DNA of 64,000 bases from Roseospira marina (lineage in GTDB: Bacteria; Pseudomonadota; Alphaproteobacteria; Rhodospirillales; Rhodospirillaceae): positions 62,001-126,000 of the forward strand of contig NZ_JACIGJ010000002.1 of NCBI RefSeq assembly GCF_014197855.1. Reading direction: 5' to 3'. The notes beneath the pieces are model-generated. The model was not told where the DNA came from, did not search any database, and saw only the letters and a program-made list of their open reading frames with translations. Numbering within the stretch: position 1 is the first letter of the stretch; each line of letters begins with the position of its first letter. A program made the translations under genes and the position numbers. Shown piece by piece: positions 44,914-64,000 of the stretch.

Positions 44914-46164
44914 ATGATCCTGACCATCAACTGCGGCAGTTCGAGCCTGAAGTACCAGCTCTACAGCGACGACCTGGGGACGGTCGCCGCCAAGGGCATC
45001 GTCAGCCGTATCGGCGAGCCCCGCCCGACCCTCGACCACACCGCCGGGGCGCGCTCCGTCCACTGCGAGGTGGCCGCCGCCGATCATGGCGCCGCCCTGG
45101 AGGTGCTGATCGACGCCCTTATGGACGCCGAGGTCGGCGCCATCGACGACATCCACGCCATCCGCGCCGTGGGGCACCGGGCAGTGCACGGCGGCGACAC
45201 GTTCGTGGACTCCGTCGCCGTGACCGACGCGGTCCTGGAGCAGTTGGACGCCTGCACACCGCTGGCGCCGCTGCACAATCCGATCAACCTGATCGGCATC
45301 CGCGAGGCGCGCCGCCGCCTGCCCGACGTGCCGCACGTCGTGGTGTTCGATACCGCGTTCCACCAGACCATGCCGGCGCACGCGCACGTCTACGCGCTGC
45401 CCTACGAGCTGTACGACGAGCATAAGATCCGCCGCTACGGGTTCCACGGCACGTCCTGCCGCTACGTCAGCCAGCGCGCCGCAGACCTGCTCGACCGTCC
45501 GGCTGACGACCTGCGCATGGTCATCTGCCACCTGGGCAATGGAGTCACCATCGACGCCGTCGCCGGGGGCCGCTCCGTCGACACCAGCATCGGCTTCGCG
45601 ACGTTCTCGGGCGTGCCGATGGGCACCCGATCCGGCGACTTCGACCCCGGTTTGATCTTCTATCTGCACAACACACTGGGCCTGAGCCTGACCGAGATCG
45701 AACGGATGTGCTACCGGACCGGCGGCCTGCTGGGCGTGTCCGGCGTCAGCAACGACATGCGCGAGGTCGTGGAGCAGGCCGTAACCGGTAACGCACGCTG
45801 CGTTCTCGCCCTCGACATGTTCACCTACGCGATCAAGAAGTACATCGGCAGCTACGCCGCCGCCATGGGCGGTCTGGACGCGCTCGTGTTCACCGCCGGT
45901 ATCGGCGAGAACAGCGCCCACATCCGTGCGCGTGTGTGCGCCGGACTGCGCTTCCTCGGCATCGCGCTGAACGAGGCGACCAACGACGCCACGCGCGGCG
46001 TCGCGGTCGACATCAGCGCCCCCAGTGCCTCGGTTGCGACCCTGGTCGTGCCCACCGACGAGGAACGCATGATCGCCGAGGATACCCGGCGGATCGCCAT
46101 GGCAGGCGACGCCGCGCTGGCGACCGGGCGCCGCGCCGCCTCCGAGATGGAGCCGGCCGAGTAG
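44914..46164 (+). CDS. ackA: Acetate/propionate kinase
   Basis: This 416-residue kinase interconverts acyl phosphate + ADP with acid + ATP. It has the ASKHA pattern: ILTINCGSSSLKYQLY at the N-terminus, VGHRAVHGG, PLAPLHNPINLIGI, VVFDTAFHQTMP, YGFHGTSCRYVS, HLGNGVTIDAV and FTAGIGENSAHIR. Because it borders the propanediol microcompartment island, I infer that it acts on propionyl phosphate from PduL (the role of PduW). Family members use both acids, so specificity is open. It is followed by a strong terminator. Confidence 0.93.
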   Translation: MILTINCGSSSLKYQLYSDDLGTVAAKGIVSRIGEPRPTLDHTAGARSVHCEVAAADHGAALEVLIDALMDAEVGAIDDIHAIRAVGHRAVHGGDTFVDSVAVTDAVLEQLDACTPLAPLHNPINLIGIREARRRLPDVPHVVVFDTAFHQTMPAHAHVYALPYELYDEHKIRRYGFHGTSCRYVSQRAADLLDRPADDLRMVICHLGNGVTIDAVAGGRSVDTSIGFATFSGVPMGTRSGDFDPGLIFYLHNTLGLSLTEIERMCYRTGGLLGVSGVSNDMREVVEQAVTGNARCVLALDMFTYAIKKYIGSYAAAMGGLDALVFTAGIGENSAHIRARVCAGLRFLGIALNEATNDATRGVAVDISAPSASVATLVVPTDEERMIAEDTRRIAMAGDAALATGRRAASEMEPAE

Positions 46165-46219
46165 GGTTCACGATCCTCCCTCCCCTGCGCCCGACATTGG
46201 CCGGCGCGGGGTCCCTCCG

Positions 46220-46257
46220 CCCCATGACCCCTGCACCCGGGTCATGGGGTCTTTTTT
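46220..46257 (+). terminator. Rho-independent terminator of ackA
   Basis: CCCCATGACCC and GGGTCATGGGG form a perfect 11-bp stem with an 8-base loop, followed by TCTTTTTTG. It starts 56 bases after the ackA stop. Confidence 0.92.
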
Positions 46258-46547
46258 GCGCGGCGCTGTGAACAGGCGCAGACGTTCCGTGGACCGGCAC
46301 CGCGCCGCGGGTTTGATCCCTCGCGCGATCCCTCCCCTCGCTCCGCTCGGTCGCGATACCCTTGTCCTTTGTTTTATATAGAGGAAACATCATGCCGACC
46401 GCCCCGAGAGGGGCGGCGGAATCTTGAAAGCGGTGTCGTGACCATCCGGGTTTTCTCAAGAGCGCGCCGGGATCGTCCCCGCCCGCGCCGGCGGGTCTGA
46501 TGTCTTCGCCCTGGCCCACGCCATGCGCCCCGCCCAGCCCCCCACAC
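46258..46547. other. Convergent intergenic region
   Basis: No gene is supported. It contains an A/T-rich island (TTTGTTTTATATAGAGGAAAC, about 46370-46390). A 7-bp GC hairpin with a GAGA tetraloop lies at 46399-46416. An 11-codon frame at 46392-46427 has a weak ribosome-binding site. Confidence 0.4.
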
Positions 46548-46625: not shown

Positions 46626-47531
46626 TCAGGCCGGAAGCGGGATCATGGCCCAGACGCCCAGCGCCGTCAGGCCGTTGAACACCAGGGTCATGGTGGCAAT
46701 GGTGCAGGCGGGCGGATCGATGTGGGTGTCGCCATGCGATAGGAAGGTGCGTGCGAAGAACTCGCCGACAAAGGCGCACAGCACGCCCGCGATCCCCGCC
46801 GCGATCAGGCTGCCCGACGACACCGCAACGATGGCCGACGGCAGCATAATGTGGTGCGTCACCGGCACATTCACACCGAACTGAAGGAAAATCAGGCTCG
46901 CGGCCGCAATGCCGAAGGACAAGAAAATACCGGGCGCTCCCAAGGTCAGGCCCAGATAGCCAGCCATCAGGCCACCGCCCAGACCGATCACGATCAGCTG
47001 GCCCCAGTCGCTCATGAACACCAGCCACTTGGCGCCATCGGTCGGCGCGTAAAAGTGCCGGCCCGGTTCCGCGCAGCCGCACAGGCCACAGGTGCCCCAA
47101 AGGAAGCGCGCGATGATGCCGGAGACCGCCACGGTGAGCGCAACGGTATCGGTCCAGGCGATACCCGGCCCAAAATCCGGCACCTGCGCGAACGTCCATT
47201 GCAGCAGATACCCGAGGATACCGAACGCCCCGCCGACCAGGAGAACGTCGGGGCTGTTCAGGCCCATCAGGCCGGCGACGATGTTGCGGCCGGTATCGAG
47301 CTTCTTCTTCTTCGCGGCATAGGCGGCAGCCGCGACACCGGCGGCGAACCCGCCCACATGCGGCCCGAACATGCCGAACGGAATGCTGTAAAAGTCCCCG
47401 CCCGCGCCGGCGAGATCAATCGCCACGCCAATCATGACCAGAAAGCCGACGAATTCAAACGCCGGCAGCGCGCCGATCGCCGCGCCGAAAATACCCCCGC
47501 CGAACGCGGCGAGCACACCGATGAGCGTCAT
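46626..47531 (-). CDS. Polytopic membrane protein of unknown function, BMC island
   Basis: This 301-residue protein has about eight or nine hydrophobic helices (roughly 2-20, 25-43, 55-73, 92-112, 126-144, 177-197, 199-219, 235-259 and 277-297). A positively charged loop, AAKKKKLDTGRN, lies at about 72-83. A Cys motif GTCGLCGC is at 147-153. I do not recognise the family. A permease for propanediol, propionate or another metabolite of the compartment is an inference from position only. The ATG at 47531 has an excellent ribosome-binding site (TGGAGGAAACT), so the longer frame upstream is not used. A candidate FNR box lies 235 bp upstream and a terminator follows, so it is its own transcription unit. 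Confidence 0.85.
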   Translation of the reverse strand: MTLIGVLAAFGGGIFGAAIGALPAFEFVGFLVMIGVAIDLAGAGGDFYSIPFGMFGPHVGGFAAGVAAAAYAAKKKKLDTGRNIVAGLMGLNSPDVLLVGGAFGILGYLLQWTFAQVPDFGPGIAWTDTVALTVAVSGIIARFLWGTCGLCGCAEPGRHFYAPTDGAKWLVFMSDWGQLIVIGLGGGLMAGYLGLTLGAPGIFLSFGIAAASLIFLQFGVNVPVTHHIMLPSAIVAVSSGSLIAAGIAGVLCAFVGEFFARTFLSHGDTHIDPPACTIATMTLVFNGLTALGVWAMIPLPA

Positions 47532-47943: not shown

Positions 47944-48990
47944 TTATTCGGCCGCGATGGCCGTTGGTGCCCGGCACTGCTGGCGATACGCCGACGGCGA
48001 CACGCCAACCTCCTTCTTGAAGGACTTACAGAAGTAGTTGACATCGCTATAGGACAGCTCAAACGCGATATTCGTCACGCATTCTTCGCTGTCGGACAGC
48101 AATTCCTTCGCCAGCTCAATCCGGCGCGTGGTCAAGTAGGCGATGAAATTAATGTTCATCTTCTTCTTGAAAAGACGACTCAAATAGCAGGCGCTGACAT
48201 TGATGTGTTCGGCAACGTCTTCCAGCGTCACGCCCTTATCCAGATTTCGCTCGATGAAGTTCAGCGCCTTCTGCATGCGCTCCGGGCTCTGGCCGCAGCG
48301 CTCCCGCACCGAGTCGAACAGCGCATCCGTCATGGAACGGAACACCCCCAACACATGGTGCCGGCTGCGATCGTCCAACCGCAAAGTCTGCAGATTGTGC
48401 ACCTCCTGGGCCACAGTCTCCGGGAGCCTCAGGTTGCGTTCCTTCGCCAGATCGACCAGCGCGGTGGCGAATTCAAGCGCCAGATGGCGTGGCGCCTCTT
48501 CTCGCTGCATGAAGATCCACTCGCCATGCCGCCGCACCAGCGCCACGGCCTCGCGATAGGCGGACTGCTCCAGCAAAGTCCCGACCTCATGCGCCAGATC
48601 GCCACTGCGCTTGCCGGTATTGAGATGCTCCAGGCAGCCTTCCACCGCCGAAACCAGAGCGCTCGGTCGGATTGGCTTCAGCAGGTAATCGTCCGCCCGC
48701 AGTTGGATGGCCGCGCGCATGGTATCGAAGTAATCATAAGCCGTGGTAATGATGACCTTCGTCTGAGCGTGCTTATCACGCAACTTCTGAAGCACCTCCA
48801 GGCCGCTTGGCTTCGGGATATTGATGTCAAGAAGGACCAGATCAATATCGTATCGGTCAATCAGCTCAATAGCCTCGGCTCCGTTCTTGGCCTCACCCAG
48901 GATATTCAGCCCGGGCACATGATCGGTCAGGATGGAGCGCAGCGCCTGACGCTCCAGTTCCTCGTCTTCCACGATCACCACATCATACAT
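47944..48990 (-). CDS. AraC-type response regulator of the BMC locus
   Basis: This 348-residue regulator has an N-terminal receiver domain with the acidic pocket (VEDEE), phosphoacceptor D55 (LVLLDINIP) and Lys in YLLKPIRPS. A middle linker region follows. The C-terminal AraC-type double helix-turn-helix (about 245-340) has LEDVAEHINVSACYLSRLFKKKMNINF and VTNIAFELSYSDVNYFCKSFKKEVGVSPSAYR. It lies 39 bp downstream of the PocR-domain kinase and surely forms a two-component pair with it. I infer that it activates the microcompartment operon in response to propanediol. Confidence 0.93.
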   Translation of the reverse strand: MYDVVIVEDEELERQALRSILTDHVPGLNILGEAKNGAEAIELIDRYDIDLVLLDINIPKPSGLEVLQKLRDKHAQTKVIITTAYDYFDTMRAAIQLRADDYLLKPIRPSALVSAVEGCLEHLNTGKRSGDLAHEVGTLLEQSAYREAVALVRRHGEWIFMQREEAPRHLALEFATALVDLAKERNLRLPETVAQEVHNLQTLRLDDRSRHHVLGVFRSMTDALFDSVRERCGQSPERMQKALNFIERNLDKGVTLEDVAEHINVSACYLSRLFKKKMNINFIAYLTTRRIELAKELLSDSEECVTNIAFELSYSDVNYFCKSFKKEVGVSPSAYRQQCRAPTAIAAE

Positions 48991-49029: not shown

Positions 49030-50370
49030 CTACAGGTCAAACGGATCGAATTCGAGCGGAAAGCGCATACGGACCCGGGTCCCCCGGCCGTCGGCAACCG
49101 GGCTCTCGATCTCCAGGCCATGGTCCTCGCCGAAGAAATGCCGCAGGCGGCTGTCGACGTTGCGCAGGCCGATGCTGGTGCGACCGTGGTGCTCGGCGCG
49201 CCCGTCCAGGGCCGCCGCAACCATCGCTGGATCGACCCCATCACCGGTATCCACAACCTCCAGGATCACATCGGTGCCGTCGTCCCGTGCGGTCACGGTC
49301 ACCCGGCCATCGCTCGCGTGCGGTTCCACCGCGTAATGGATGCTGTTCTCGACAATCGGATTCAGCACCATGAACGGGCACTGCACGCTCAGATATTTGG
49401 CCGGCACATCGATGTCGAACGTAAAGCGCCCGCTCATGCGCACCTTCTGGATGTACAGATAGTTGCGCACATGCTCCAGTTCGGTCCCCAGGGACACGAT
49501 CTGCGCACTGCTTTTCTTCAGGATATAGCGCATCATGTCGGAGAAGGCGTAGACCATCTCCTCGGTTTTGTCGGCGTGCTCCATCAGCGCCAAGCGCCCA
49601 ATGGTGTTCAGCACGTTGAACAGGAAGTGCGGATTGACCTGATACGACAGCGCCTGCAATTCGGCCTCTTGCAGGGACTTTTCCAGTTCCACCCGCTTCT
49701 TGGATTCCTCCATCAGCTTCAGCGATTTGGCGCTGAGCTCCTGGCTGACGGTGTTCGAATAGCTCTCCTCCACCAAATACTCGGCCAAATAGTACAGCGT
49801 GTACGAGGCCGACCGAAGCTTGGTGTAGGGAATCATGTTGGTCTGCTCGCGCAGCGCCACCAGAGTGGGATCCTGCAACCACGCGAAGTCGGGCGGGAAG
49901 ATGTAATCCGGAAGCTCCTCCGGCGCGACATCGTTCAGCCGCACCTGGCCGGAGATGACGGCCCCCAGGTAGTGGCCCCGGATCACGATCGGCGCCGCGA
50001 AGTCCACCAGACCACAGTGACATTGGTACAGACTGGGCTGCCCCGTCGCCATGGCCATGCGTCCGCCTTCGTTGTCGCACCGGAAGCATTGATCCCGCCG
50101 CGCCTCCACCAGACGCACCGTTCGGCAGAAATTGGAAAAGCCGCTCGGCTGGGTCACGGGCTGGCCGTCGCGGCCGACGATGATCATCGCGATGCCAACG
50201 GCGGCGCTGAAGTTGTCCTGAACCTTCTGCAACCGCTCAACACTGATGAGGTCCGACAGGCTTGGGACGCGCTGGTCCTGGGTCGTTTCTTCGGAAAACC
50301 CAACGTCACGCGGCGCGCCGTGATCCGCCGCGGCGGCCGTTTCGGCATCTCGCGCTGCTTGCATGTTCAC
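49030..50370 (-). CDS. PocR-domain sensor histidine kinase (LytS/YehU type)
   Basis: This 446-residue cytosolic kinase has a PocR ligand-binding domain (about 38-190). PocR is the domain of the propanediol regulator of the pdu/cob regulon. Cys residues C82, C95, C98, C117 and C119 (FCRTVR, CFRC, YQCHCG) could bind metal or a cluster. A coiled coil (205-245) leads to the His_kinase domain with H248 in VNPHFLFNVLN. The HATPase domain shows NPIVENSIHYAV and GRTSIGLRNVDSRL. There are no transmembrane segments, so it senses a cytosolic ligand. The start is a GTG at 50370 after GGGAGAACG; an ATG two codons in is an alternative. Confidence 0.92.
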   Translation of the reverse strand: MNMQAARDAETAAAADHGAPRDVGFSEETTQDQRVPSLSDLISVERLQKVQDNFSAAVGIAMIIVGRDGQPVTQPSGFSNFCRTVRLVEARRDQCFRCDNEGGRMAMATGQPSLYQCHCGLVDFAAPIVIRGHYLGAVISGQVRLNDVAPEELPDYIFPPDFAWLQDPTLVALREQTNMIPYTKLRSASYTLYYLAEYLVEESYSNTVSQELSAKSLKLMEESKKRVELEKSLQEAELQALSYQVNPHFLFNVLNTIGRLALMEHADKTEEMVYAFSDMMRYILKKSSAQIVSLGTELEHVRNYLYIQKVRMSGRFTFDIDVPAKYLSVQCPFMVLNPIVENSIHYAVEPHASDGRVTVTARDDGTDVILEVVDTGDGVDPAMVAAALDGRAEHHGRTSIGLRNVDSRLRHFFGEDHGLEIESPVADGRGTRVRMRFPLEFDPFDL

Positions 50371-50798: not shown

Positions 50799-51716
50799 TC
50801 AGCCGCCGATCACACAGGCCAGGCCCAATCCCTCAATCACCCCCTTGAGCGTCGCCACGGCATCCTTGGACAACGACGGCGTATCCCCCATCGGGTATTC
50901 CCGGTTCAGCAGGGCGTATTTGTTTTCGCCATAGGTGTGGTACGGCAGGATATGGACCGTATCCACCCCGGGCATCCGCAGGGCGAACCGGCCGATGGCC
51001 TCCATGGAGGCCGGATCTGCGTTGACGCCCGGCACCGTCGGCACCCGCACGACGGTATGGGTCAGCGAGGCAATGCGCAGCGCGTTTTCGAGAATCTGCC
51101 GGTTGTCCACGCCGGTGCTCGCGCGGTGCACAGCCGGATCAATGGACTTCAGATCGCAAAGCGCATGGTCGACGTGCGGAATGACATCCTCCACAACCTC
51201 TTTGGGCGCCTGACCGGTCGTCTCCATCGCGGTGTTCCAGCCCTGCTCCCGGCAGGCCTTCAGCAATTCGCGCGCAAAGTCGGGCTGGCCGAGCGGCTCA
51301 CCACCCGACAGAGTCATGCCCCCGCCCGACCGGCGGTAGTTGGTGGCATCCTTCCGGAGCTCCTGCATGACTTCCCAGACCGTCATGCGCTTCCCCTTCA
51401 GGGTCAGGGCATCGGTCGGGCACACCTCGGCGCAGGCACCGCAGCCGACACACTTGCTGCGGTCGACGAACCCGGGATTGTTCCGCGACAGTGCCCCGTA
51501 CTTGCACGCTTCAAGGCAGCGACCACAGTGAATGCAGCTCGAATCCTGGTACATCAGGGTCGGCTGGAGCGCCTGGGATTCCGGGTTGCAGCACCACCGG
51601 CAGGCCAACGGGCACCCCTTCAGGAACACGATGGTGCGGATCCCGGGACCGTCGTGGATCGAATAGCGCTGGATGTCGAAAACAACACCGGTTTGGTCGA
51701 ATTTGATCTCGCTCAT
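50799..51716 (-). CDS. Radical-SAM activase of the glycyl radical dehydratase
   Basis: This 305-residue enzyme makes the glycyl radical on the dehydratase by cleaving S-adenosylmethionine. The radical SAM cluster motif is CPLACRWC (C-x3-C-x2-C, near residue 35). Two ferredoxin-like [4Fe-4S] motifs follow, CIHCGRCLEAC and CVGCGACAEVC, as in pyruvate formate-lyase-type activases of glycerol and propanediol dehydratases. MTLSGGEPLGQ is the SAM-binding GGE motif. It is the last gene of the operon, nine kilobases from its target. The start at 51716 gives the usual GVVFDIQRYSIHDGPGIRT N-terminus. Confidence 0.95.
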   Translation of the reverse strand: MSEIKFDQTGVVFDIQRYSIHDGPGIRTIVFLKGCPLACRWCCNPESQALQPTLMYQDSSCIHCGRCLEACKYGALSRNNPGFVDRSKCVGCGACAEVCPTDALTLKGKRMTVWEVMQELRKDATNYRRSGGGMTLSGGEPLGQPDFARELLKACREQGWNTAMETTGQAPKEVVEDVIPHVDHALCDLKSIDPAVHRASTGVDNRQILENALRIASLTHTVVRVPTVPGVNADPASMEAIGRFALRMPGVDTVHILPYHTYGENKYALLNREYPMGDTPSLSKDAVATLKGVIEGLGLACVIGG

Positions 51717-51800: not shown

Positions 51801-52088
51801 TTACGCCCGCTCGATGGCCTGCATCGCCGTGCGCACGGCCGACGTTTCACCGAAAAACGCCAGCGTGGTGACGTGCTGCGGGCAGCTTCCGAACAGCTCG
51901 ACGACAAGAACGTCCGCCGCTTTCTGGGCGACGTCCGCGAAGAAGTACAAATCGGCAACACTGGCCTGGACCAGACCGACGGCCCCGAACGTCTGCTCCT
52001 TCACGGTCGCGCGCATATCCGGGTGAATGCGCCGTCCGAGCATGTGCATCACATCGGGTCCGGGGGCGTTGATGATGCGGGCGTTCAT
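51801..52088 (-). CDS. GrpU-like shell protein (permuted BMC domain)
   Basis: This 95-residue protein looks like a circularly permuted BMC-domain protein of the PduU/EutS/GrpU kind without the N-terminal beta-barrel. The core reads AVGLVQASVADLYFFADVAQKAADVLVVELFGSCPQHVTTLAFFGETSAVRTAMQAI. The single Cys in GSCPQH lies where GrpU, a shell protein of glycyl-radical compartments, is reported to bind an Fe-S cluster. The assignment is moderate because the sequence is divergent. The start at 52088 has a strong AGGAGGATCCCAGC. It sits between pduP and the activase. Confidence 0.7.
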   Translation of the reverse strand: MNARIINAPGPDVMHMLGRRIHPDMRATVKEQTFGAVGLVQASVADLYFFADVAQKAADVLVVELFGSCPQHVTTLAFFGETSAVRTAMQAIERA

Positions 52089-52263: not shown

Positions 52264-53919
52264 TTAGCGGATGTTCAGCGCCTCGACCATCACGCAGCGG
52301 CGCAGGCGCGCGAACGATTTGGCCGAGGTCAGACCCTCGCCGGTGGGGCCGGCGATGGTGAACGTGCCGTGGCCCATGCCGCCAGCACCGAGCCCGGCGT
52401 AGGACGGCCCGTTCTTCACGAAGATCGTGGTCTGGATCAGCTTGCCCATCTTGGTGAGCTTGCGGACGTTGGTGGAGTGCATGATCGCCGTGTGGCGGTT
52501 GCCGTGTTCCACCTCAATCGCCAGCAGGATGGCCTGATCCACATCCGGCACCCGCACCAGGGGCAGGATCGGCATCAGCAGTTCTTCCTGAACGAACGGA
52601 TGCTCCTTCGGCAGTTCGATCAGGATGACGCGGACGTCGTCCGTCACCGAAACGCCGGCCTTTTCCAGGATGTACTGGGCGTTCTTGCCGACGAAGCCGG
52701 TGTTGGGCGTGCCCTTCTCCGTCAGGACCAGGGCTTCCAGCTTCTGGACCACGGCCGGGTCCGTGACGTGATAGGCACCACAGCCCTTCATGCAATGGAT
52801 CAGGAAATCCGCGATCTGATCGACCGCGATAAGTTCCTTCTCCGCCGTGCAGGGCAGGTTGTTGTCGAAGCTGCACCCGTTGACGATGTCGCGGGCCGCC
52901 TTCTCGATGTCGGCGGTTTCGTCCACCACGACCGGCGGATTGCCGGCGCCGGCGCCGATGGCCTTCTTGCCCGTGGACATGACGGCCTTGACGATACCGG
53001 GGCCGCCGGTCGCCACCAGCATCTTGATGTCCGGGTGGGACATCATGGCGTTGGTGTTGTCGATCGACGGCGTGGCGACGGTCACGACCAGATTCGCCGG
53101 AGCCCCCAGGGCGGCCAGCTTCTCATTGATCATCCGCACCATCAGCAGCGAGACGCCCTTGGCGCGCGGGTGCGGGCTGAACACCACCGCGTTGCCGGCG
53201 GCCAACATGCCGATGGCGTTGCAGATGATGGTCTCGGTCGGGTTGGTGGTCGGGCAGACCGCGCCGATCACGCCGTAGGGCGAGTACTCGACCAGCGACA
53301 GGCCATCGTCGCCGCTCATCGCCTGGGTGGTCAGATCTTCGGTGCCCGGGGTCTTCGAGGCGGCGAGGCGGTTCTTGATAATCTTGTGCTCAAGGCGCCC
53401 CATGCCGGTTTCCTCAACCGTCATGCGGGACAGCGTCTCGGCGGTGTCGCCCTCCAGAACCACGGCGCGGATGCCATCCACGAAGCGCTGGCGGTCGGCC
53501 ATGGTGCACAGCAGGTACTGGCGCTGGGCCTGCACCGCCGCCGCCACGGCCGCATCCATGGTCTCGAAGATGCCATCCCCGGCGCCGGTCGGCGCGGCGG
53601 CCGGCTTGATCCCGTCCGGTTCGCTCATCACCTTGGCCAGGATGCGCTCGACCGGATCGCCGGCGGTATCATCGACCATTTTCCAGCAGCAGCCCTTGGT
53701 GCCGGGCACGCTCGCCCGGACGGTTTCGGCGGCCGGGGCTGGAGTCTCGGCCCTATGGGCTTTCAGAATATCGGCGACCGCGCGCGCGATCGCATCGGCA
53801 TCAGCGCCCGACGCGGGGGCGCTCGACGTGGTGGGAGTCGGCGCGGCGGGCGGCGCCTTGGGGCCACCGTACGCCCCAAGCACCTCGTCCACGATGGCCG
53901 TGATCTGCCCGTCATCCAT
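52264..53919 (-). CDS. pduP: CoA-acylating propionaldehyde dehydrogenase
   Basis: PduP (551 residues) oxidises propanal to propionyl-CoA with NAD+ inside the shell. The dehydrogenase core shows VIGAVCPTTNPTETIICNAIGMLAAGNAVVFSPHPRAKGVS, VATGGPGIVKAVMSTGKKAIGAGAGNPPVVVDETADIEKAA and catalytic C357 in NNLPC. It is about 85 residues longer than typical PduP at the N-terminus. The extension has three short amphipathic helices: 5-17 (QITAIVDEVLGAY), about 40-55 (DAIARAVADILKAH) and 89-100 (PVERILAKVMSE), separated by Pro/Ala/Ser linkers. Such helices are encapsulation peptides. An odd GCCW motif lies at 76-79. Strong ribosome-binding site GTAGGAGG. Confidence 0.94.
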   Translation of the reverse strand: MDDGQITAIVDEVLGAYGGPKAPPAAPTPTTSSAPASGADADAIARAVADILKAHRAETPAPAAETVRASVPGTKGCCWKMVDDTAGDPVERILAKVMSEPDGIKPAAAPTGAGDGIFETMDAAVAAAVQAQRQYLLCTMADRQRFVDGIRAVVLEGDTAETLSRMTVEETGMGRLEHKIIKNRLAASKTPGTEDLTTQAMSGDDGLSLVEYSPYGVIGAVCPTTNPTETIICNAIGMLAAGNAVVFSPHPRAKGVSLLMVRMINEKLAALGAPANLVVTVATPSIDNTNAMMSHPDIKMLVATGGPGIVKAVMSTGKKAIGAGAGNPPVVVDETADIEKAARDIVNGCSFDNNLPCTAEKELIAVDQIADFLIHCMKGCGAYHVTDPAVVQKLEALVLTEKGTPNTGFVGKNAQYILEKAGVSVTDDVRVILIELPKEHPFVQEELLMPILPLVRVPDVDQAILLAIEVEHGNRHTAIMHSTNVRKLTKMGKLIQTTIFVKNGPSYAGLGAGGMGHGTFTIAGPTGEGLTSAKSFARLRRCVMVEALNIR

Positions 53920-55585: not shown

Positions 55586-56442
55586 GACCGGCCCCCTTCC
55601 CCGGGCGTGCCGTAGAGGGCGATGCCCAGCGGCGTGACCAGCAGGGGATGCGGTGGCTTGATGATCGTGCGGCCGATCTGCTTCTGAAACACGCCCTCGA
55701 ACGCATCAAAGGTGCAGGCGCCACCCACCACATAGACCGTGTCGACGTCGTAGCCCTCTAGGAAGCGAGCGACGATGGCGGCCATCTTCTCGACCACCGG
55801 GCGGACCACGGGGAACACGTCGCGGGCCTTGGCCGGATCGAGTTTGAGGACTTCGGCCTCCTCGAAGGTCACGCCGTAGGCCCCGGCCAGCACCAGCGAC
55901 ATGTGCGTGCCGCCGGTGGCCTCGTCGTCGGTGAAAACGACCGTGCCGTCCTTGACGACGCTGATGCCCGTGGTGCCACCGCCGACGTCCACCACCGCGC
56001 CGTCGCGCACGCCCAGAAGGCGGGTGGCGGCGGAGGGTTCGTCGATGACCTCGACCACATCGAAGTCCGCAGCCTCGACCACGTTGGCGATGGCCTTGAT
56101 GTTACCCGTCGCGATACCAGGCGGAATCGCGGTGCCGGCCTGGGTCAGCGTGCAGCCGAGGCGCTCCTCGACCGTCGCCTTCAGGTGCCGCACCGCGTTC
56201 ACCGCGCCCATGTAGTCGACCACGATGCCGTCGCGCACGACCGTCGAGCGGTAGGTCGCCCCGGTCACCGGCTGGTTGGCGGCGTCCACCACGGCCAGCA
56301 CGATGTTCGCGGTACCCAAGTCCACGCCGACCTTGAGGGGACCCTCGGCCCGTTCCTCGACCGGCGTGCAGACCTCGTCGCGGATCAGGCGCGCGAAGGT
56401 CTCCAGGGTCCTGTCTGCCGTCTCTGCGTCGTACATCGCCAT
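55582..56442 (-). CDS. eutJ: EutJ-like ASKHA/Hsp70-type chaperone
   Basis: This 286-residue actin/Hsp70-fold ATPase of the EutJ family is thought to assist folding or assembly of compartment enzymes. The phosphate loops are KVGVDLGTANIVLAVVD and GAVVDVGGGTTGISVVKDG; the adenosine motif is VYVVGGACTFDAFEGVFQ. The segment EEAEVLKLDPAKARDVFPVVRPVVEKMAAIV is typical. I chose the ATG at 56442; a TTG at 56466 has no ribosome-binding site. It follows pduL by 40 bp and overlaps the flavoprotein start. Confidence 0.92.
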   Translation of the reverse strand: MAMYDAETADRTLETFARLIRDEVCTPVEERAEGPLKVGVDLGTANIVLAVVDAANQPVTGATYRSTVVRDGIVVDYMGAVNAVRHLKATVEERLGCTLTQAGTAIPPGIATGNIKAIANVVEAADFDVVEVIDEPSAATRLLGVRDGAVVDVGGGTTGISVVKDGTVVFTDDEATGGTHMSLVLAGAYGVTFEEAEVLKLDPAKARDVFPVVRPVVEKMAAIVARFLEGYDVDTVYVVGGACTFDAFEGVFQKQIGRTIIKPPHPLLVTPLGIALYGTPGEGGRS

Positions 56443-56482
56443 GGTCCCGAACCGGTCCCGAGTCAAAAGGAGGCGTGCGGCC

Positions 56483-57175
56483 TTACGACCGCGGAAGAAT
56501 GCGAACGAGATCGTCGTTCTTCAGGCCAAGGGCGTTGGCTTCCTCGATGTCCACGTGCATTTCGAGCGTCGACGGGTCGCCGACCCGCACCACCACGCCG
56601 GACAGGATGCCGCCCCGAGGGCCGCTCACCTCGACGTCCACCGCGTCGCCCGAGCACAGCCCGAGGTCGACCGCCACCGCGACCGGCATGTGGATGTGCC
56701 GCAGGGCCGCGATCACGCCGCGCTGGATCGTCACCGCACCGTGCGGCCCGACGATCTCGATCCCCGGGGTGTCGTCCAGATCGCCGGACTGACGCAGCGG
56801 CGGGCGAACGCCCAGCGAGAACCCGTCGGCCACCGAAATTTCAACCTGCGTGCTGCCGCGCATCGGACCTAGGACGCGGACCTTGCTCAGTTCGCCCTTG
56901 GGACCCTTGAGGGTCACCGTCTCTTTGGCGGCGTAATGGCCGGGCTGCTTCATCGCCTTCATCCGGGTCAGGCTGGCGCCGGGACCAAACAGCGCGTCCA
57001 TGTCGGCGCGCGACAGGTGAATGTGCCGGTTGGAGACACCGACAGGGACAAGGTACGGATCCACCGGCGCGGCGACCGCAGCGGCCGAGGGCGTCTGGGG
57101 CAGCAGGCCCTCGCTCACCGTCCGGGCGAGGATGTCGCAGAGGATCCGCTCAACAAGACTTTCATTCAGTTGCAT
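56483..57175 (-). CDS. pduL: Phosphate propanoyltransferase PduL
   Basis: PduL (230 residues) converts propionyl-CoA to propionyl phosphate and regenerates CoA inside the shell. Zn-binding His motifs are visible: VSNRHIHLS in the first domain and ALRHIHMP in the second, along with MEISVADGFSLG-type and MHVDIEEANALGL segments. The N-terminus carries an encapsulation-peptide-like helix (ESLVERILCDILART, residues 5-19) followed by a Pro/Ala linker. The start ATG is at 57175. A 104-bp gap with a stem-loop separates it from the upstream shell gene. Confidence 0.96.
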   Translation of the reverse strand: MQLNESLVERILCDILARTVSEGLLPQTPSAAAVAAPVDPYLVPVGVSNRHIHLSRADMDALFGPGASLTRMKAMKQPGHYAAKETVTLKGPKGELSKVRVLGPMRGSTQVEISVADGFSLGVRPPLRQSGDLDDTPGIEIVGPHGAVTIQRGVIAALRHIHMPVAVAVDLGLCSGDAVDVEVSGPRGGILSGVVVRVGDPSTLEMHVDIEEANALGLKNDDLVRILPRS

Positions 57176-57279: not shown

Positions 57280-57558
57280 TCAGCCGAGGCGCGGCAGCAT
57301 CTTCTCGACGTCCACATGCGGACGCGGAATGACGTGCTTGGACACGACCGTGCCGACCTTCTCGGCGGCGGCGGCGCCGGCATCGACGGCGGCCTTCACC
57401 GCGCCGACGTCACCGCGCACCATGGTGGAGACCAGGCCGGAGCCGATCTTCTCGTAGCCGACCAGCGTCACGTTCGCGGACTTGGTCATGGCGTCGGCGG
57501 CCTCGATGGAGCCGACCAGACCCTTAGTTTCAACGATACCGAGTGCTTCGCCACTCAT
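57280..57558 (-). CDS. BMC-H shell hexamer protein (PduA/PduJ-like)
   Basis: This 92-residue single BMC-domain protein is a main facet component. The sequence starts [58 protein letters not shown] and closes with [19 protein letters not shown]. The KIGSGL pore-lining segment is of the PduA/EutM type that passes small polar metabolites. It is closely similar to the 98-residue paralogue at 59140, which points to a local duplication. Confidence 0.96.
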
Positions 57559-57573
57559 CTCTGTTACTCCTGT

Positions 57574-58263
57574 TCAGGCCTTGGGCCTGGGTTTGGATTT
57601 CGTGTGATGCCCGCCATGGTTCCGGCCGTCCGCCCGGTTCGGGCGGTTGGACACGGGTCCCGCCTTGGCCGGGCGGGAGGGCGTCGGATCGGGTGCCTTG
57701 GATGCGCCCGCTTGTTTCGTTGGCTCGTCCTTCGGGCTCGCCGGCTCGGACGGCCCGTCCGCGTCTGACGCTGCCGTATCGGTCGAAGCCGCCGAGGGCT
57801 CGGTCGGCTCAGGCGCCGGCGTGTCCACCGGAGTGACCTCCGCAGCCGATTCCGGAGCCGGGTCCGATGCCGGTTCCGGCGCCGGGTCCGCCGCCACCTG
57901 GGCAGGCGGGGCGGCCGGGGCCGGGGCATCGTCCCGGAATGCCGGGGCCTGAGCCGGAGGCGCGGGTTGCTGCGCGCCGACCGTTTCCGGGGTGACGACG
58001 AGCCCCTGGATCCCGTCGGACGGGCGGGCGATGACCCGCGTCGACACGACGGTGTTGATCCGGGCCGCCGCCGCCTGGGCCGCCGCGATGGCGGCCTTGA
58101 CGGCCCCGACGTCCCCCTGAACCTTGACGATCGTCATGCCATCGCCTTTGGTCAGCTCGTATCCCACCAGCGTGACGTTGGCGGATTTGACCGCGGCATC
58201 CGCGGCCTCGATGGCGGCGGCCAGACCGATCGTCTCAATCAGACCGAGACTCGGGTGCGCCAT
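57574..58263 (-). CDS. BMC-H shell protein with long disordered C-terminal tail
   Basis: This 229-residue protein has an N-terminal BMC domain (1-88: [55 protein letters not shown]). A tail of about 140 residues without predicted order follows. Residues about 95-175 are Pro/Ala/Glu/Asp-rich and acidic. Residues 190-229 are basic and rich in Pro, Asn and His (RPNRADGRNHGGHHTK). The pore residues KGDG differ from the other hexamers. PduK is also a BMC protein with a C-terminal extension, but no sequence similarity in the tail is evident. The tail may reach into the cytosol or the lumen. Gaps to both neighbours are 15-18 bp. Confidence 0.92.
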   Translation of the reverse strand: MAHPSLGLIETIGLAAAIEAADAAVKSANVTLVGYELTKGDGMTIVKVQGDVGAVKAAIAAAQAAAARINTVVSTRVIARPSDGIQGLVVTPETVGAQQPAPPAQAPAFRDDAPAPAAPPAQVAADPAPEPASDPAPESAAEVTPVDTPAPEPTEPSAASTDTAASDADGPSEPASPKDEPTKQAGASKAPDPTPSRPAKAGPVSNRPNRADGRNHGGHHTKSKPRPKA

Positions 58264-58281: not shown

Positions 58282-59109
58282 TCAGATGTACGGGGTCGTG
58301 GAGGACTTCGGCTCCTCGCCGCTCAACGCGCCCAGCAACTGCTTGCCGACGTCGCGCGCCGCGATCACGGCCTGACGGACAGCACCGGAGTCCCCGCTGA
58401 ACGCGAAGATGACCTCGTTGCTAAAGCTCGTGCCCTTGGCCGGGGAGGAGTACGCAATCGGATCCACGGTCGCGGCCTTGGCAGCCGTATCGGCCAGGAC
58501 CACACCGATGGCCGCCGGGGCGCCCACGGTGATGGCGAAGGACTGCCCGATCGGGGCCCCGAACGCCTTGTTCAGCGCGAAGCTGGCGCGGGCGGTGTAC
58601 TGGAACTCCAGGTGCCCGGCGGCCGTGCCGTAGACGTCGCCGAAGGTCTGGTCCAGGTACTGCAGGGTCACTTCGACCGCGCGGCGGGCGTCGGAGACGT
58701 CCTCGGCGCCGAAGATGATCAGGGAGCCATGGCCGCCACCACCCTCGGTGTCGCGGGGCAGTTCGATGACCAGCACTTCGCTGTTCGTGGCCTTGACGGC
58801 CTCGTCGGCGGCGAAGATGTGCGGACCGGCTCCGGTGCGCGCCCCGACGATGCCGATGGAGCGGTACTTCGGATCAATGCCCATCTGCTTGTGCAACTCG
58901 GCGTCCACATTGGCGATCACGAGGCCAATGGTGTTGCCGATGGCGGTGCCGACATATTCCGTCAGCGCGCAGGCCTTCTTGGGCAGGGCGGCCGGTGCCG
59001 GCGCAGGGGCCGGAGCGGCGGGGGCGGCGGCGGCCGGACTCTCGGTTTCCGAGCCACCCATCTTGCGGATCACTTCACCCATGATCCGTTCGACCAGATC
59101 GTCTTTCAC
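58282..59109 (-). CDS. pduB: BMC-T shell trimer protein (PduB-like)
   Basis: This 275-residue tandem-BMC protein is very similar to PduB. The first BMC domain has EYVGTAIGNTIGLVIANVDAELHKQMGI, IGIVGARTGAGPHIFAADEAVKATNSEVLVIELPRDT and GHGSLIIFGAEDVSDARRAVEV. The second has LNKAFGAPIGQ, GVVLADTAAKAATVDPIAYSSPAKGTSFSNEVIFAFSGDSGAVRQAVIAARDVGKQLLG. The N-terminus is an amphipathic helix (MKDDLVERIMGEVIRKM) with a 25-residue Ala/Pro linker, as in PduB, where it connects shell and cargo. Translation starts at a GTG (59109) after AGGAGTG. Confidence 0.96.
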   Translation of the reverse strand: MKDDLVERIMGEVIRKMGGSETESPAAAAPAAPAPAPAPAALPKKACALTEYVGTAIGNTIGLVIANVDAELHKQMGIDPKYRSIGIVGARTGAGPHIFAADEAVKATNSEVLVIELPRDTEGGGGHGSLIIFGAEDVSDARRAVEVTLQYLDQTFGDVYGTAAGHLEFQYTARASFALNKAFGAPIGQSFAITVGAPAAIGVVLADTAAKAATVDPIAYSSPAKGTSFSNEVIFAFSGDSGAVRQAVIAARDVGKQLLGALSGEEPKSSTTPYI

Positions 59110-59139: not shown

Positions 59140-59436
59140 TTAGCCGGCCACCGTTCCGGTCTGCGTGTTGGGGAGGATGCGCTCGACCTCGCTGTGGGGG
59201 CGCGGGATCACATGGAGGGACATGACCTGCCCGACCTTCTCGGCGGCCACGGCGCCGGCGTCGGTCGCCGCCTTCACGGCGCCCACGTCCCCGCGCACCA
59301 TGACGGTCACAAGGCCGGACCCGATCTTCTCGTAGCCGACCAGGGCCACATTGGCGGACTTGACCATGGCATCGGCGGCCTCGATGGCGCCGGTCAGGCC
59401 TTTGGTCTCCACCATGCCCAAGGCTTCCTGTTGCAT
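59140..59436 (-). CDS. BMC-H shell hexamer protein (PduA-like)
   Basis: This 98-residue single BMC domain reads [59 protein letters not shown], with the same KIGSGL pore segment as the 92-residue paralogue. The C-terminal tail [10 protein letters not shown] is longer. I placed the start at the ATG at 59436, six bases after AGGGAG; the adjacent GTG at 59439 is too close to that site. It is the first shell gene downstream of the two large enzymes. Confidence 0.95.
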
Positions 59437-59523
59437 CACTTACTCCCTAGATCGTTCTGCTGCGGGCCGATCGTGTGTCGCCGAGACCCGCCACGGTTCA
59501 GAAAAGGGCTGTCGGTCCGGCGA

Positions 59524-60663
59524 TCACCCGGCCACCGCGCGCAGCACGGTCAGAACATCGTCGGCGGAGACCGTGCGCGGATTGGTCGCCAGGCTCTTGT
59601 CGGCCAGAGCCAGCCGCACCAGGTCCGCCTCGGCGGCGGCATAGGCCGCCATGTCCACACCGGCCGCCCGCAGTGTCGCGGGCACATTCATGCGCGCGTT
59701 CATCTGGGCGAGGTGCCGGGCCAGGGCGCGGGCGCCCGCCCGATCGTTAGGCGCATCGAGCCCGACGCGCTGCGCCAGCGCGGCATACCGGGCCGCCGTC
59801 GGGAACGGCGCCGCATCGCCCGGCCGGACGCCCGCGTTGCAGGCGATAACCGCCGGCAGCAGCATGGCGTTGATCCGACCGTGCGGCAGGTGCAGCCGGC
59901 CACCGATCGAATGGGCGATCGCGTGGTTCAGACCCAAACCCGCGTTGGCGAAGGCGATCCCCGCCATGCACGACGCGTGGTGCATGGCGGTTCGGGCCGT
60001 CATGTCATCGCCGGTGGCATAGGCCGTCGGCAGATGAGTCACCGCCAGACTGACGGCCTTTTCCGCGAAGGCATCCGTGTAGTCGGTGGCCCCGACGGAC
60101 ACGAAGGCTTCGATCGCGTGGGTGAGCACGTCCATGCCGGTGTCGGCCGTGACGGCGGGCGGCACGGAGCGCACAAGCTCCGGATCCAGCAAGGCGATAT
60201 CCGGAATGATCTCGTCCGAGATCAGGGGATACTTGATGCCCTTCTCCGGCTCCGAGATCACCGCCCACGAGGTCACTTCCGACCCCGTACCGCTCGTGGT
60301 GGGCACCGCCACCAGGGGAATGGGGTGATCCGGGACCAACGCACGCACCGTAGCCACGATGGCTTTGGCGGCGTCGATCACCGACCCGCCCCCGAGGGCG
60401 ACCAGCACATCCGGTCCAAAATCAGCCATCCGAGCAGATGCCTCGGCAACCTGCGATCGGGGCGAGTCCGGCAACACACTGTCGTACACCGCCACGGTGC
60501 AGGCCGGCAGACTGGCACGGAAGCGCTCCACGATCCCGACCTTGGCCATCATCGCATCGGTGATGAGACCGACCCGCCGGCCCTCGAAGTCCCGAAGCCG
60601 CTCGGTCACATTGGCACCGAACACGATCTCGGTCTTGAGGTTGAAACGCTTCAGTCCGCTCAT
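59524..60663 (-). CDS. pduQ: Iron-containing alcohol dehydrogenase (PduQ-like)
   Basis: This 379-residue group III (iron) alcohol dehydrogenase reduces propanal to 1-propanol and recycles NADH for PduP. The NAD-binding part shows VLVALGGGSVIDAAKAI and VAVPTTSGTGSEVT. The metal-binding region reads NHAIAHSIGGRLHLPHGRINAMLLP, with the expected Asp and His residues. It has no N-terminal targeting helix, so it may be drawn in through partner proteins. It is separated from the dehydratase gene by a 154-bp gap with a large folded element. Confidence 0.93.
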   Translation of the reverse strand: MSGLKRFNLKTEIVFGANVTERLRDFEGRRVGLITDAMMAKVGIVERFRASLPACTVAVYDSVLPDSPRSQVAEASARMADFGPDVLVALGGGSVIDAAKAIVATVRALVPDHPIPLVAVPTTSGTGSEVTSWAVISEPEKGIKYPLISDEIIPDIALLDPELVRSVPPAVTADTGMDVLTHAIEAFVSVGATDYTDAFAEKAVSLAVTHLPTAYATGDDMTARTAMHHASCMAGIAFANAGLGLNHAIAHSIGGRLHLPHGRINAMLLPAVIACNAGVRPGDAAPFPTAARYAALAQRVGLDAPNDRAGARALARHLAQMNARMNVPATLRAAGVDMAAYAAAEADLVRLALADKSLATNPRTVSADDVLTVLRAVAG

Positions 60664-60817: not shown

Positions 60818-63361
60818 TCAGAGCGTCTGCTCGGTGCGGCTGATGATGTCGTCCTGCACTTCCTTGGCGAGCACCACGAACTGGGCGCTGTAGCCGGCGA
60901 CGCGCACGACGAGATCCTTGTACTTCTCGGGGTCCTTCTGGGCGGCCAGCAGGGTGTCCCGGTCGATCACGTTGAACTGAACGTGCATGCCCTTGTGATC
61001 GAAGTAGCTGCGGATCAAGGCACTGAAGTTCTGAAGACCGCTATCCCCGGCAAGCGACGACGGCAAGAACTTCTGGTTGTACAGCGTGCCGTTGGAGGCG
61101 ATGAAGTGGTCGAGCTTGGCCACCGAATTCGCCGCGGCGCTGGGACCCTTGGTGTCCTTGCCCTGGCGGGGCGACACGCCGTCGGCCAGCGGGGCCTTGG
61201 CGGGACGACCGTTCGGGAGAGCGGAAACGTCCTTACCGAACAGAACGTTGGCCGACACCGGGTAAATACCGGCCTGGAACTGACCACCACGCGGGTTGGT
61301 GTACTTCTCGACTTCCTTGCAGTAGATCAGCGCGCACTTGCGGGCGACCAGATCAACCTCGTCGATGTCGTTGCCGAAGGCCGGGGTGCTGTCGAGCAGG
61401 CGCCGTACGGCGTCGTACTGCGTCATGCCTCCGCTGCTGGCCGGGGCCGCCGCGCCGCCGCTCAGCGACTGATAGACCTGCGACTTCAGGGCGTTGACAT
61501 CCAGCGAGTTGGCGCTGGCGAGCACCTTGCGGACGGCTTCGTACACCTGATCCTCGGTGACTTCGCCGGCGGCCGGCGAGGCACTCTGCCCGTTGGGCAG
61601 ACCGAAGTTGGCGTCCAACGCTTCCTTCAGTTCGGCCAACGAGAGCTTCTTGTCCTCGAAGACGTGCTTCTGGATGGCGTAGACGGAGTCACCGGTATCC
61701 GCGACACCGAAGGCCTGCGGGCCGGTGAAGTTGTAGAGGGCACCCCCTTCCTGGACCGACTTGCCGCGACCGATGCAGTCATCGACCAGAGCGGACAGGA
61801 ACGGCAGCGGGGCGCGTTCGGCGTGAGCGTAGTCGACGCAGTTGTCGGCTTCGACCAGCAGGCGAACGAAGTACGTCATCTGCGCCTGGAACGCGGCGTA
61901 GAAGTCATCCATCGAGCGGAAGGAGGTGAACTCGCCGGTCTTGGGGCCAAGCTGCTTGTCGCCAACGCGACCACCATTCATGGTGATTTCGAAGACCTTG
62001 GCCACGTTGAAGAACGCGGCGTCGTGCCAGCCCTCGGTGCGGTGGATGGACTGCGGCTCCACGCAGCCGACGATGCCGTAGTCGCGGGCATCCTTCAGCG
62101 ATACACCGCGATTCTGCAGCGCCGGGATGATGACTTCGTCGTTGTACATGGCCGGCACGCCGAGGCCGAGACGGACCACTTCAGCGGCGCGCAGGAGGAA
62201 GGTATCGGGCGTGCCCTGCCAGACGCGGATCGAGAACGACGGCGCCGGCAACTGCACATGAGCGGTCGCGTCCATGCACATGTACGACACGTCGTTGGTG
62301 GCATCGAGGCCGTCTTCGGTCTGACCACCGACGCACAGGTTCTGGAACACGGCATAGCCGGCGAACGCCTGCGCGGAGACTTCGTCACGGGTCTTGTTGA
62401 CGTCGTTCAGCTTGATCCAGATGCAGTCGACCAGTTCCTGCGCGAAGTTGCGCGAGATGGTCGTGTCCGCCTTAAGGAACGGATACATGTACTGGTCAAA
62501 GCGCCCCGGGGAGATCGAGTGACCCGAGGATTCGATCTGCAGCATGGACTGGACGAACCAGAACGCCTGGCAGGCTTCCCAGAACGTCGTGGCCGGGAAT
62601 TCGGGGACGCGCGCGCAGTTCTTGGCGATCTGCTCCAGCTCGGCCTTGCGGCTGGGGTTGCTCTCAGCCTGCGCCAGTTCCTGCGCCTTGGCGGCGTAGC
62701 GATGAGCGAAGTTGATGCCGGCCGTGTAGGTAATGATCAGCGCGTTATAGAACTGCTGCTTCTTGATGTAGGAGGGGTCATTGAGGTCCATGGCCTCCAT
62801 GGCCTGCACGACGTCGGCGATGATGCCCCGGAAGCCCTTGGTCAGGACCTTGCCGTAGTCGACGCAGACGTGACCGACACCACCGAAGTAGTAGTTTCCG
62901 ACCGTGAATACACCGTTGGACTGGGCGTCCCTGCACTCGGGCGACATGTAGGACGACGCCAGTTCACTGGTTGTCTTGCCCGGCCAGTACTTGAAGACCT
63001 CGTGCAGTTCGGCGGCGGTGTCCTTCGGGATCACGAACGGATCGGCCACGCGGGTGGCCATCGTCTCGAATTCCTTTTCGACCCAGTCGAACGAGAATTC
63101 GGGGCAGATTTCGGTGGAGCGCGGGTTCTTGGTGATGGCGCCGACGATCAGCTCGTCGTCGCGGATGGTCACCGGCAGATTGTTGAAGACCTTTTCGGCC
63201 ACCTTGGCACGCCGCAGGATGGCGGGCAGGCCTTCGGTCTCCTTGTAGGCCTCCGTCACCAGCACCGCGCGCTCGGACTCGACGTGCGGCATGGCGTTGA
63301 TAATCTGAGCCTTCAGCCGCATGACCCGATCGGTCGGCTTGGAAAAGCCCTTCTCAATCAT
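60818..63361 (-). CDS. Glycyl radical diol dehydratase (B12-independent, 1,2-propanediol type)
   Basis: This 847-residue signature enzyme of the compartment dehydrates 1,2-propanediol to propanal by radical chemistry without B12. The glycyl radical is G823 in RVAGYS and the thiyl radical Cys is C433 in VGCVEPQ. H164 (GVGHVCVD), S282, E435, D447 (TEGWHD) and Y700 (GIYPVS) match active-site positions of glycerol dehydratase. The EGWHD motif argues against choline lyase. Position 339 is Phe where glycerol dehydratase has Tyr. Residues about 587-649 are an insertion of about 60 residues with linkers around two helices (TEDQVYEAVRKVLAS; DVNALKSQVYQSL). The ATG at 63361 has TGGAGGATGTC. Substrate glycerol cannot be excluded by sequence alone. 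Confidence 0.93.
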   Translation of the reverse strand: MIEKGFSKPTDRVMRLKAQIINAMPHVESERAVLVTEAYKETEGLPAILRRAKVAEKVFNNLPVTIRDDELIVGAITKNPRSTEICPEFSFDWVEKEFETMATRVADPFVIPKDTAAELHEVFKYWPGKTTSELASSYMSPECRDAQSNGVFTVGNYYFGGVGHVCVDYGKVLTKGFRGIIADVVQAMEAMDLNDPSYIKKQQFYNALIITYTAGINFAHRYAAKAQELAQAESNPSRKAELEQIAKNCARVPEFPATTFWEACQAFWFVQSMLQIESSGHSISPGRFDQYMYPFLKADTTISRNFAQELVDCIWIKLNDVNKTRDEVSAQAFAGYAVFQNLCVGGQTEDGLDATNDVSYMCMDATAHVQLPAPSFSIRVWQGTPDTFLLRAAEVVRLGLGVPAMYNDEVIIPALQNRGVSLKDARDYGIVGCVEPQSIHRTEGWHDAAFFNVAKVFEITMNGGRVGDKQLGPKTGEFTSFRSMDDFYAAFQAQMTYFVRLLVEADNCVDYAHAERAPLPFLSALVDDCIGRGKSVQEGGALYNFTGPQAFGVADTGDSVYAIQKHVFEDKKLSLAELKEALDANFGLPNGQSASPAAGEVTEDQVYEAVRKVLASANSLDVNALKSQVYQSLSGGAAAPASSGGMTQYDAVRRLLDSTPAFGNDIDEVDLVARKCALIYCKEVEKYTNPRGGQFQAGIYPVSANVLFGKDVSALPNGRPAKAPLADGVSPRQGKDTKGPSAAANSVAKLDHFIASNGTLYNQKFLPSSLAGDSGLQNFSALIRSYFDHKGMHVQFNVIDRDTLLAAQKDPEKYKDLVVRVAGYSAQFVVLAKEVQDDIISRTEQTL

Positions 63362-63428
63362 GACATCCTCCACAGTGTCGCACCCCCGTTCCGTGTTTGC
63401 CGGGAGGCGGAAATTCCGGTGACCTTCA

Positions 63429-64000
63429 TCAGGACAGGACACGTTCCCCATCGGGCGGGCCCAGCAACCGGACAAACGCGCGCAGCAGCGCGGGATGCCC
63501 GGGCCACGCCGGAGACGTCGCAAGCGCGCCGTCCAGGACGGACTCGTCGGGGGGAACGTCAACAAACGTTCCGCCGGCCATCTCGACGTCCGGGCGCAAG
63601 GCCGGGTACGCCGTGAGGGTCCGGCCGCGCACCACGTCGGCGGCCGTCAGGATCTGCGCGCCATGGCAGATCGCGGCCACCGGCCGGGCGGCGGTCACGA
63701 AGTGGCGCGCCAGCGCGCACACCTCGGCATTCAGTCGCAGGTATTCGGGGGCACGCCCCCCAGGCAGGTACAAGCCCGCATACGCGTCCGGCTCCACATG
63801 CACGAAAGAGCCGGTCAACCGGATACGATGGCCGGGCTTTTCCGTGTATGTCTGGTCGTCCTCGAAGTCGTGGACGGCGGTTTTGATGAACGCGCCAGCC
63901 TGCTTTCCAGGACACACCAAGTCGGTGACGAACCCAAGCATTTGGAGGGCCTGCAGAGGGACCATGACTTCATAGTCCTCGGCGAAATCGCCTGTCACAA
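63429..64000 (-). CDS. DJ-1/PfpI-family protein (partial, cut by window edge)
   Basis: About 190 residues are visible and the first few are beyond the window. The fold is DJ-1/Pfp[32 protein letters not shown] at the start and the nucleophile elbow [27 protein letters not shown] with its catalytic Cys. Members are reported as glyoxalases, deglycases or peptidases. It ends 67 bp upstream of the dehydratase on the same strand, so the operon continues outside the window. A role in handling reactive aldehydes that leak from the compartment is inference from context. Confidence 0.88.

Follow-up and report, generated by a model that had tools for sequence, protein, structure and literature searches.

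A GRM3-type glycyl radical microcompartment island in Roseospira marina and a candidate diol channel encoded where related loci carry an aquaglyceroporin

Bacterial microcompartments (BMCs) that process 1,2-propanediol include B12-dependent and B12-free forms. In the B12-dependent PDU microcompartment the diol is dehydrated by PduCDE, and in the glycyl radical enzyme (GRE)-associated microcompartments (GRMs) of the GRM3 type by a GRE. The GRM3 enzyme of R. palustris is described as a dedicated 1,2-propanediol dehydratase with an intramolecular encapsulation peptide (PMC5311937), and the GRM3 genes of C. ljungdahlii are reported to be induced by 1,2-propanediol, accompanied by polyhedra that are taken for BMCs (PMC12016505). 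A kinase, a peptidase, a flavoprotein, EutJ, a DUF336 protein, a two-component system and an S-adenosylmethionine (SAM) synthetase have been listed as ancillary genes of GRM3 (Axen 2014, PMC4207490). The GRM3b loci are reported to carry GrpU in 53 of 55 cases, with the motif GXCPQ[N/H], and usually to lack PduT and PduS (Ferlez 2019, PMC6325248). Here, we analysed a stretch of 64,000 nucleotides (the window) from Roseospira marina, bases 62001-126000 of contig 2 in a 4.6 Mb genome assembled in 57 contigs. Profile scans delimit in it a single gene island, from position 44914 to the window end, with all genes on the minus strand except that of a kinase. We consider it highly probable that this island specifies a GRM3 microcompartment for the anaerobic, B12-free breakdown of 1,2-propanediol in a phototrophic alphaproteobacterium, the diol entering through a membrane protein encoded at 46626-47531. 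This membrane protein, as a channel candidate, is what is new here; the remaining content of the island is already known.

The island resembles the PDU microcompartment in the pathway that follows the dehydratase and in its homologues of PduB, PduL and PduP, but a GRE takes the place of PduCDE. Its gene order is PfpI, GRE, alcohol dehydrogenase, BMC-H, PduB, long-tailed BMC-H, (second BMC-H), PduL, EutJ, flavoprotein, BMC-P, HbpS, PduP, GrpU and activase. This order is common to Azospirillum, Rhodovulum, Rhodobacter capsulatus, Rhodobacter maris and others, and the Telmatospirillum locus departs from it only by the lack of an HbpS match at the usual place. In a genome of the same family as R. 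marina (G671), the order is identical from PfpI to the response regulator, and the GRE and the membrane protein are 83% and 77% identical to their window counterparts. In G671, the kinase gene comes after that of the response regulator and shares its strand, and the membrane protein is encoded on the other; the window shows the opposite arrangement.

All GRM3 core components are present: PduP, PduL, an alcohol dehydrogenase, BMC-H, BMC-T and BMC-P proteins, an activase with a ferredoxin-like insert and the signature GRE. From the ancillary list of Axen 2014, the island has the kinase, the flavoprotein, EutJ, DUF336, the two-component system and the peptidase, which we infer to be the DJ-1/PfpI gene; SAM synthetase is not among the island proteins scanned. 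With the GRM3 locus of R. palustris BisB18, as described (PMC5311937), the island shares a signature GRE with intramolecular encapsulation peptide, the activase, an N-terminally extended PduP and PduL. It has in common with GRM3b a GrpU protein with the motif GSCPQH. None of the six PF00936 matches of the genome is a PduT, and the scan for PduS, confined to the island proteins, gave no match. The presence of this GrpU and the lack of PduT make the gene content that of GRM3b, and the island is, as judged from its sequence, a further member of the published GRM3 family. Since its parts are already in the literature and its gene order is the one of alphaproteobacterial GRM3 loci, the island is of a known kind, ordinary for its class. 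An earlier reading of this DNA from the sequence alone had proposed a complete GRM3-type locus with several unusual parts. The GRM3 assignment was right, as attested by the position of the dehydratase inside the GRM3 set, its encapsulation peptide and a gene order equal to that of loci such as those of Azospirillum, Rhodovulum and Rhodobacter. Profile scans also recovered every part named, each in its place. Two genes had been overlooked, the DJ-1/PfpI gene and the membrane protein gene, and the unusual character of the parts had been overstated, those named being the published GRM3 set.

The membrane protein (301 aa, minus strand) has no Pfam or NCBIfam match in library scans. When 15 family members (the window protein and 14 relatives) were compared with Pfam, no match was better than E 0.013, none was to a urea transporter (UT) at E up to 1, and none was to PF00230, the family of the major intrinsic proteins (MIPs), so that a relationship with the aquaglyceroporins was rejected. 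A PDB profile search with the family returned no credible relative; its one match, at E 0.94, was taken as chance. In the openly licensed literature we found no non-aquaporin channel for propanediol or glycerol, although our searches were mostly aimed at other questions and such a channel may be published. The accessible text of one paper presents new transporters for ethanolamine and choline and no channel of this kind (PMC6620236), and none appears in the accessible parts of three others (PMC11962113, PMC7593272, PMC8217296). None of the libraries and papers that we consulted gave us a name for the protein. As the published GRM3 taxonomy was built on Pfam content, a conserved gene that has no Pfam family could go unnoticed.

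The family is linked to GRM3 loci. We surveyed 47 of 80 GRE loci, those with GRM3 or near-GRM3 enzymes, and found the family in 31 of the 47 genomes. The gene lies inside the fetched GRE flank in 21 of these 31, and 10-11 kb away by coordinates in six more (L013, L015, L018, L019, L043 and L044; the shared contig was verified for L044 only, the genome of L043 being complete). In the last four (L021, L042, L047 and L051) it stands on a contig other than that of the GRE. As background, 385 Alphaproteobacteria yielded one strong match, in the R. marina genome itself, and one weak match, and 398 Pseudomonadota, a draw that overlaps with the former, yielded the R. marina match alone. In Clostridium beijerinckii, the homologue is located between a MetK-like gene, recognised by eye, and a BMC-H gene. 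The gene at the same position of the published GRM3 locus of this species is listed as "Conserved membrane protein of unknown function", its log2 changes on rhamnose versus glucose being 8.75, 7.81 and 5.87 (PMC6384099); on the basis of synteny, we take this rhamnose-induced gene to be the C. beijerinckii homologue. In a family tree of 54 rows, the GRM3-linked rows do not form one clade (3 changes), and 12 proteobacterial GRM3-linked rows form a supported set.

Further evidence comes from the distribution of aquaglyceroporins of the PduF/GlpF type (PF00230), which occupy in other GRM3 loci the gene slot of the membrane protein. In a motif scan of the 47 loci, MIP-like genes were present in the fetched flanks of none of the 31 loci whose genome has the family, versus 6 of the 16 whose genome lacks it. 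We also searched PF00230 in 22 genomes, picked before the outcome of the motif scan was known. None of the 9 genomes with the family, versus 10 of the 13 without it, has a MIP gene at its GRM locus (Fisher p 4.6e-4, a value too small by an unknown factor because the genomes are related). The three that lack the family and also a MIP gene at the locus are L029, L065 and L037, the locus of the latter being decayed. In five of the nine family-bearing genomes, a MIP gene is present on a contig other than that of the GRM locus; for the other four, R. marina, G671, Rhodovulum kholense and R. capsulatus SP108, the PF00230 search gave no match anywhere. The exchange can be followed within orders. In Enterobacterales, the slot flanked by the activase and long-tailed BMC-H genes holds the unclassified protein in four loci (L012, L014, L016, L025) and a MIP in four others (L020, L022, L024, L027). 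In Rhodospirillales, the series activase, histidine kinase, response regulator and kinase is followed by the unclassified protein in G671 and by a MIP in Azospirillum. The MIP gene is located elsewhere in L035, immediately before the GRE, and in Veillonella, about 11 kb from it.

Relatives of the membrane protein are also encoded in other settings. On plasmids, they are found between an FAD oxidoreductase and a glycerol kinase (Microbacterium), in a sugar or polyol cluster (Rubrobacter), and with an aldehyde dehydrogenase, an NDMA (N,N-dimethyl-4-nitrosoaniline)-dependent alcohol dehydrogenase and an acryloyl-CoA reductase (Rhodococcus), a cluster that reads like a 1,3-propanediol route. In haloarchaea, one neighbourhood was uninformative and another had no annotation. 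The family was present in 28 of 398 genomes drawn from the phylum to which Clostridium intestinale belongs (C. intestinale itself among them), and is therefore not tied to GRM loci in this phylum. The other 27 genomes provided 29 regions, whose genes were clustered by BLAST and named from one representative per cluster. Seven of these regions carry a gene of the glycerol kinase cluster, four only a dihydroxyacetone kinase, five BMC genes, three a B12 diol dehydratase and four aldehyde ferredoxin oxidoreductase-like genes; the remaining six have none of these, three of them being contigs shorter than 6 kb. Relatives in L205, L206, L210, L187 and L190 adjoin aldehyde ferredoxin oxidoreductase-like genes, in four of the five together with an iron-containing alcohol dehydrogenase; these regions are perhaps alcohol-oxidation clusters.

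The structural model of the membrane protein (pLDDT 94.8) matches the fold of urea channels first and that of Amt/Rh channels next, with borderline scores. Sequence identity to the UT/SLC14 urea transporters and Amt/Rh channels is only 7-13%, and the protein has no Pfam match to either. Its residues His226 and Asp272 are invariant. Its two halves are weakly alike, as might fit a duplicated channel fold; we do not claim an internal duplication, the signal being too weak (hhalign P 0.0034, probability 9.5%). We propose that the membrane protein is probably the substrate channel of the organelle, a non-aquaporin channel for C3 diols. An export function for propionate or propanol, or some other accessory role, would be equally served by the linkage and the co-induction, which suit any role in the pathway, and some relatives do accompany alcohol dehydrogenase and aldehyde ferredoxin oxidoreductase-like genes. 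Such a role appears unlikely to us: other relatives have glycerol kinase as a neighbour, a setting in which one would expect no propanol or propionate, the exchange with aquaglyceroporins takes place in the same slot, and the closest matches in fold are small-solute channels. Somewhat less firmly than for the island as a whole, we favour the broader proposal of an undescribed channel family of UT/Amt fold for small uncharged polyols (1,2-propanediol, glycerol and 1,3-propanediol). In Proteobacteria, Bacillota and Actinobacteria, and perhaps in haloarchaea, it would take the place of aquaglyceroporins in loci for propanediol BMCs, in operons for glycerol and in clusters with a diol dehydratase.

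The dehydratase has 847 aa (60818-63361, minus strand; PF02901 E 1.8e-249, PF01228 E 2.6e-36). Its PDB relatives are 9rco (78% identity), the glycerol dehydratase of C. butyricum (CbGDH, 1r8w, 60%) and the propanediol dehydratase of R. inulinivorans (5i2a, 52%). We placed it in a GRE tree of 95 rows that combines the window enzyme, 78 of the 80 loci of a first set, 13 of the 30 loci of a second set and the three PDB sequences. L028 and L053 (<780 aa) and L108 (no frame) were omitted, and many other loci of the second set repeat those of the first. In this tree, made by a quick method and with long-branched outgroup rows, the window enzyme and ten other alphaproteobacterial rows make up a supported set of 11, within a supported GRM3 set of 48 rows. 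The four CutC rows group apart, in a supported set of their own, and a set of 29 rows that includes 5i2a likewise lies elsewhere. The enzyme thus groups with alphaproteobacterial GRM3 enzymes, as the earlier reading had expected, and not with choline trimethylamine-lyases or with an uncharacterised clade. In the alignment it retains the active-site residues of diol and glycerol dehydratases, namely Cys433, Glu435, His164, His281, Ser282, Asp447 and the radical glycine.

That the dehydratase works mainly on glycerol, in a glycerol-fermenting microcompartment, is a reading to which CbGDH lends some weight, as the second-best PDB match and as an enzyme with the same EGWHD motif; channel relatives beside glycerol kinase point the same way. 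The motif, which the sequence-only reading had used as a sign of the substrate, is not diagnostic by itself, precisely because the C. butyricum glycerol dehydratase has it too. At CbGDH positions 339, 448 and 642, which presumably bear on substrate choice, the window enzyme has Phe, Ala and Val, as does 5i2a, and not the Tyr, Ser and Ser of CbGDH. The same three residues are present in 45 of 45 GRM3-labelled rows (L004-L049 without L028) and in 28 of 28 GRM5-like rows. In addition, PduL and PduB pass propanediol-type models, and the published GRM3 enzyme is described as specific for 1,2-propanediol (PMC5311937). The glycerol reading therefore seems to us quite improbable. The encapsulation peptide, the three positions of propanediol dehydratase type and the activity of the R. 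palustris enzyme say more about the substrate than EGWHD. A GRM for choline (GRM1/GRM2) or another substrate, suggested by little besides the locus layout common to all GRMs, can be practically dismissed, as the TIGR04394 CutC model scores 581 bits for a cut-off of 1050 and the four CutC rows, in their separate set, differ at His164, His281, Ser282 and Asp447.

The intramolecular encapsulation peptide is a 62-residue insertion at about residues 587-648 (61418-61603, minus strand), absent from 1r8w and 9rco in the alignment. All GRM3 rows but one have a counterpart of 51-101 residues. The exception, L037 (Erwinia mallotivora), has 23 residues at this site; no GXCP pore motif was found in its GrpU match and few further island genes are nearby, so this GRM3 locus looks to be decaying. 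The 9rco entry ("Glycyl radical protein") is very close to the GRM3 enzyme of Raoultella ornithinolytica (L020), yet without the insertion, and is perhaps an engineered construct.

The other parts of the island were identified by Pfam and NCBIfam profile scans of its translations, scores described as above cut-off referring to each model's own threshold. Directly upstream of the dehydratase, the DJ-1/PfpI gene (63429-64022; PF01965 E 2.9e-38) crosses the window end at 64000; such a gene adjoins the GRE in many GRM3 loci. Downstream follow the iron-containing alcohol dehydrogenase (59524-60663; PF25137, PF00465), BMC-H protein 1 (59140-59439; PF00936 E 3.2e-29) and the BMC-T protein PduB (58282-59109; TIGR04501 382.5 bits, cut-off 310). 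The next gene encodes a BMC-H protein (57574-58263; PF00936) with a long Ala/Pro/Glu-rich tail that ends basic; 14 proteobacterial relatives looked at measure 160-245 aa and have comparable tails. BMC-H protein 2 (57280-57558; PF00936 E 5.1e-30) precedes the phosphate propanoyltransferase PduL (56483-57175; PF06130, with PRK15070 above cut-off), the EutJ-family chaperone (55582-56466; TIGR02529 and PRK15080 above cut-off) and the flavoprotein (54737-55585), which has only a PF02441 match of E 2.2e-5 and a conserved place in the order. Then come the BMC-P vertex protein (54441-54725; PF03319 E 4.7e-29), the HbpS-like DUF336 protein (53968-54444; PF03928 E 6.2e-39) and the CoA-acylating aldehyde dehydrogenase PduP (52264-53919), whose N-terminal extension of about 90 aa precedes a PRK15398 match of 712.4 bits from residue 90, above cut-off. 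The GrpU-type BMC-H protein (51801-52088; PF00936 E 3.8e-7) has its GSCPQH motif, read in the translation, in common with its relatives, and is followed by the activase (50799-51716; TIGR02494 363.5 bits, cut-off 174.35, with Radical_SAM and Fer4). The two-component system consists of a histidine kinase with a PocR domain (49030-50370; PF10114 E 1.2e-45, PF06580) and an AraC-type response regulator (47944-48990; PF00072, PF12833). All these genes are on the minus strand, and the acetate/propionate kinase gene (44914-46164, plus strand; PF00871, with TIGR00016 above cut-off) is convergent with the operon. From the translations, we corrected the starts of the GRE to about 63361 (a long frame to 63565 being over-extended), of BMC-P to about 54725 and of the activase to about 51716.

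In the proposed working of the island, the histidine kinase with the PocR domain is probably the sensor of the diol, and the AraC-type regulator would switch the operon on. The diol would enter the cell through the membrane protein, a channel in place of PduF/GlpF. Inside the shell, the radical-SAM activase would generate the glycyl radical on the dehydratase, which, held by its internal encapsulation peptide, would produce propionaldehyde. PduP would convert the latter to propionyl-CoA, the alcohol dehydrogenase would recycle NADH through propanol formation, and PduL with the kinase would yield propionate and ATP. GrpU may carry electrons across the shell, and we infer that the HbpS-like protein, the flavoprotein and the DJ-1/PfpI protein also have roles in this system.

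A PF02901 search of the whole 4.6 Mb host genome gave a single match, the GRE of the island, and a PF00936 search gave six, all within the island: those of the three ordinary BMC-H proteins and of the GrpU-like protein, and one for each half of PduB. A PF02286 search for a B12 diol dehydratase found no match in this genome, a weak negative since control genomes were likewise silent. Two PF00124 matches, to photosynthetic reaction-centre genes (contig 3, 414669-416333), identify the host as a phototroph, and three matches of the methylmalonyl-CoA mutase type could correspond to users of propionyl-CoA. Of 297 genomes of the order, 3 have a GRM3-type GRE (81-100% identity), and the four other genomes listed for the genus have none, which indicates a patchy distribution of the island.

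The island of R. marina is another example of the strong conservation of GRM3 loci. If the membrane protein is indeed a diol and glycerol channel with the fold of urea channels, it would explain how C3 polyols are taken up by bacteria that have no GlpF or PduF, R. marina included, and would provide metabolic engineers with a second transporter to combine with propanediol or glycerol pathways.
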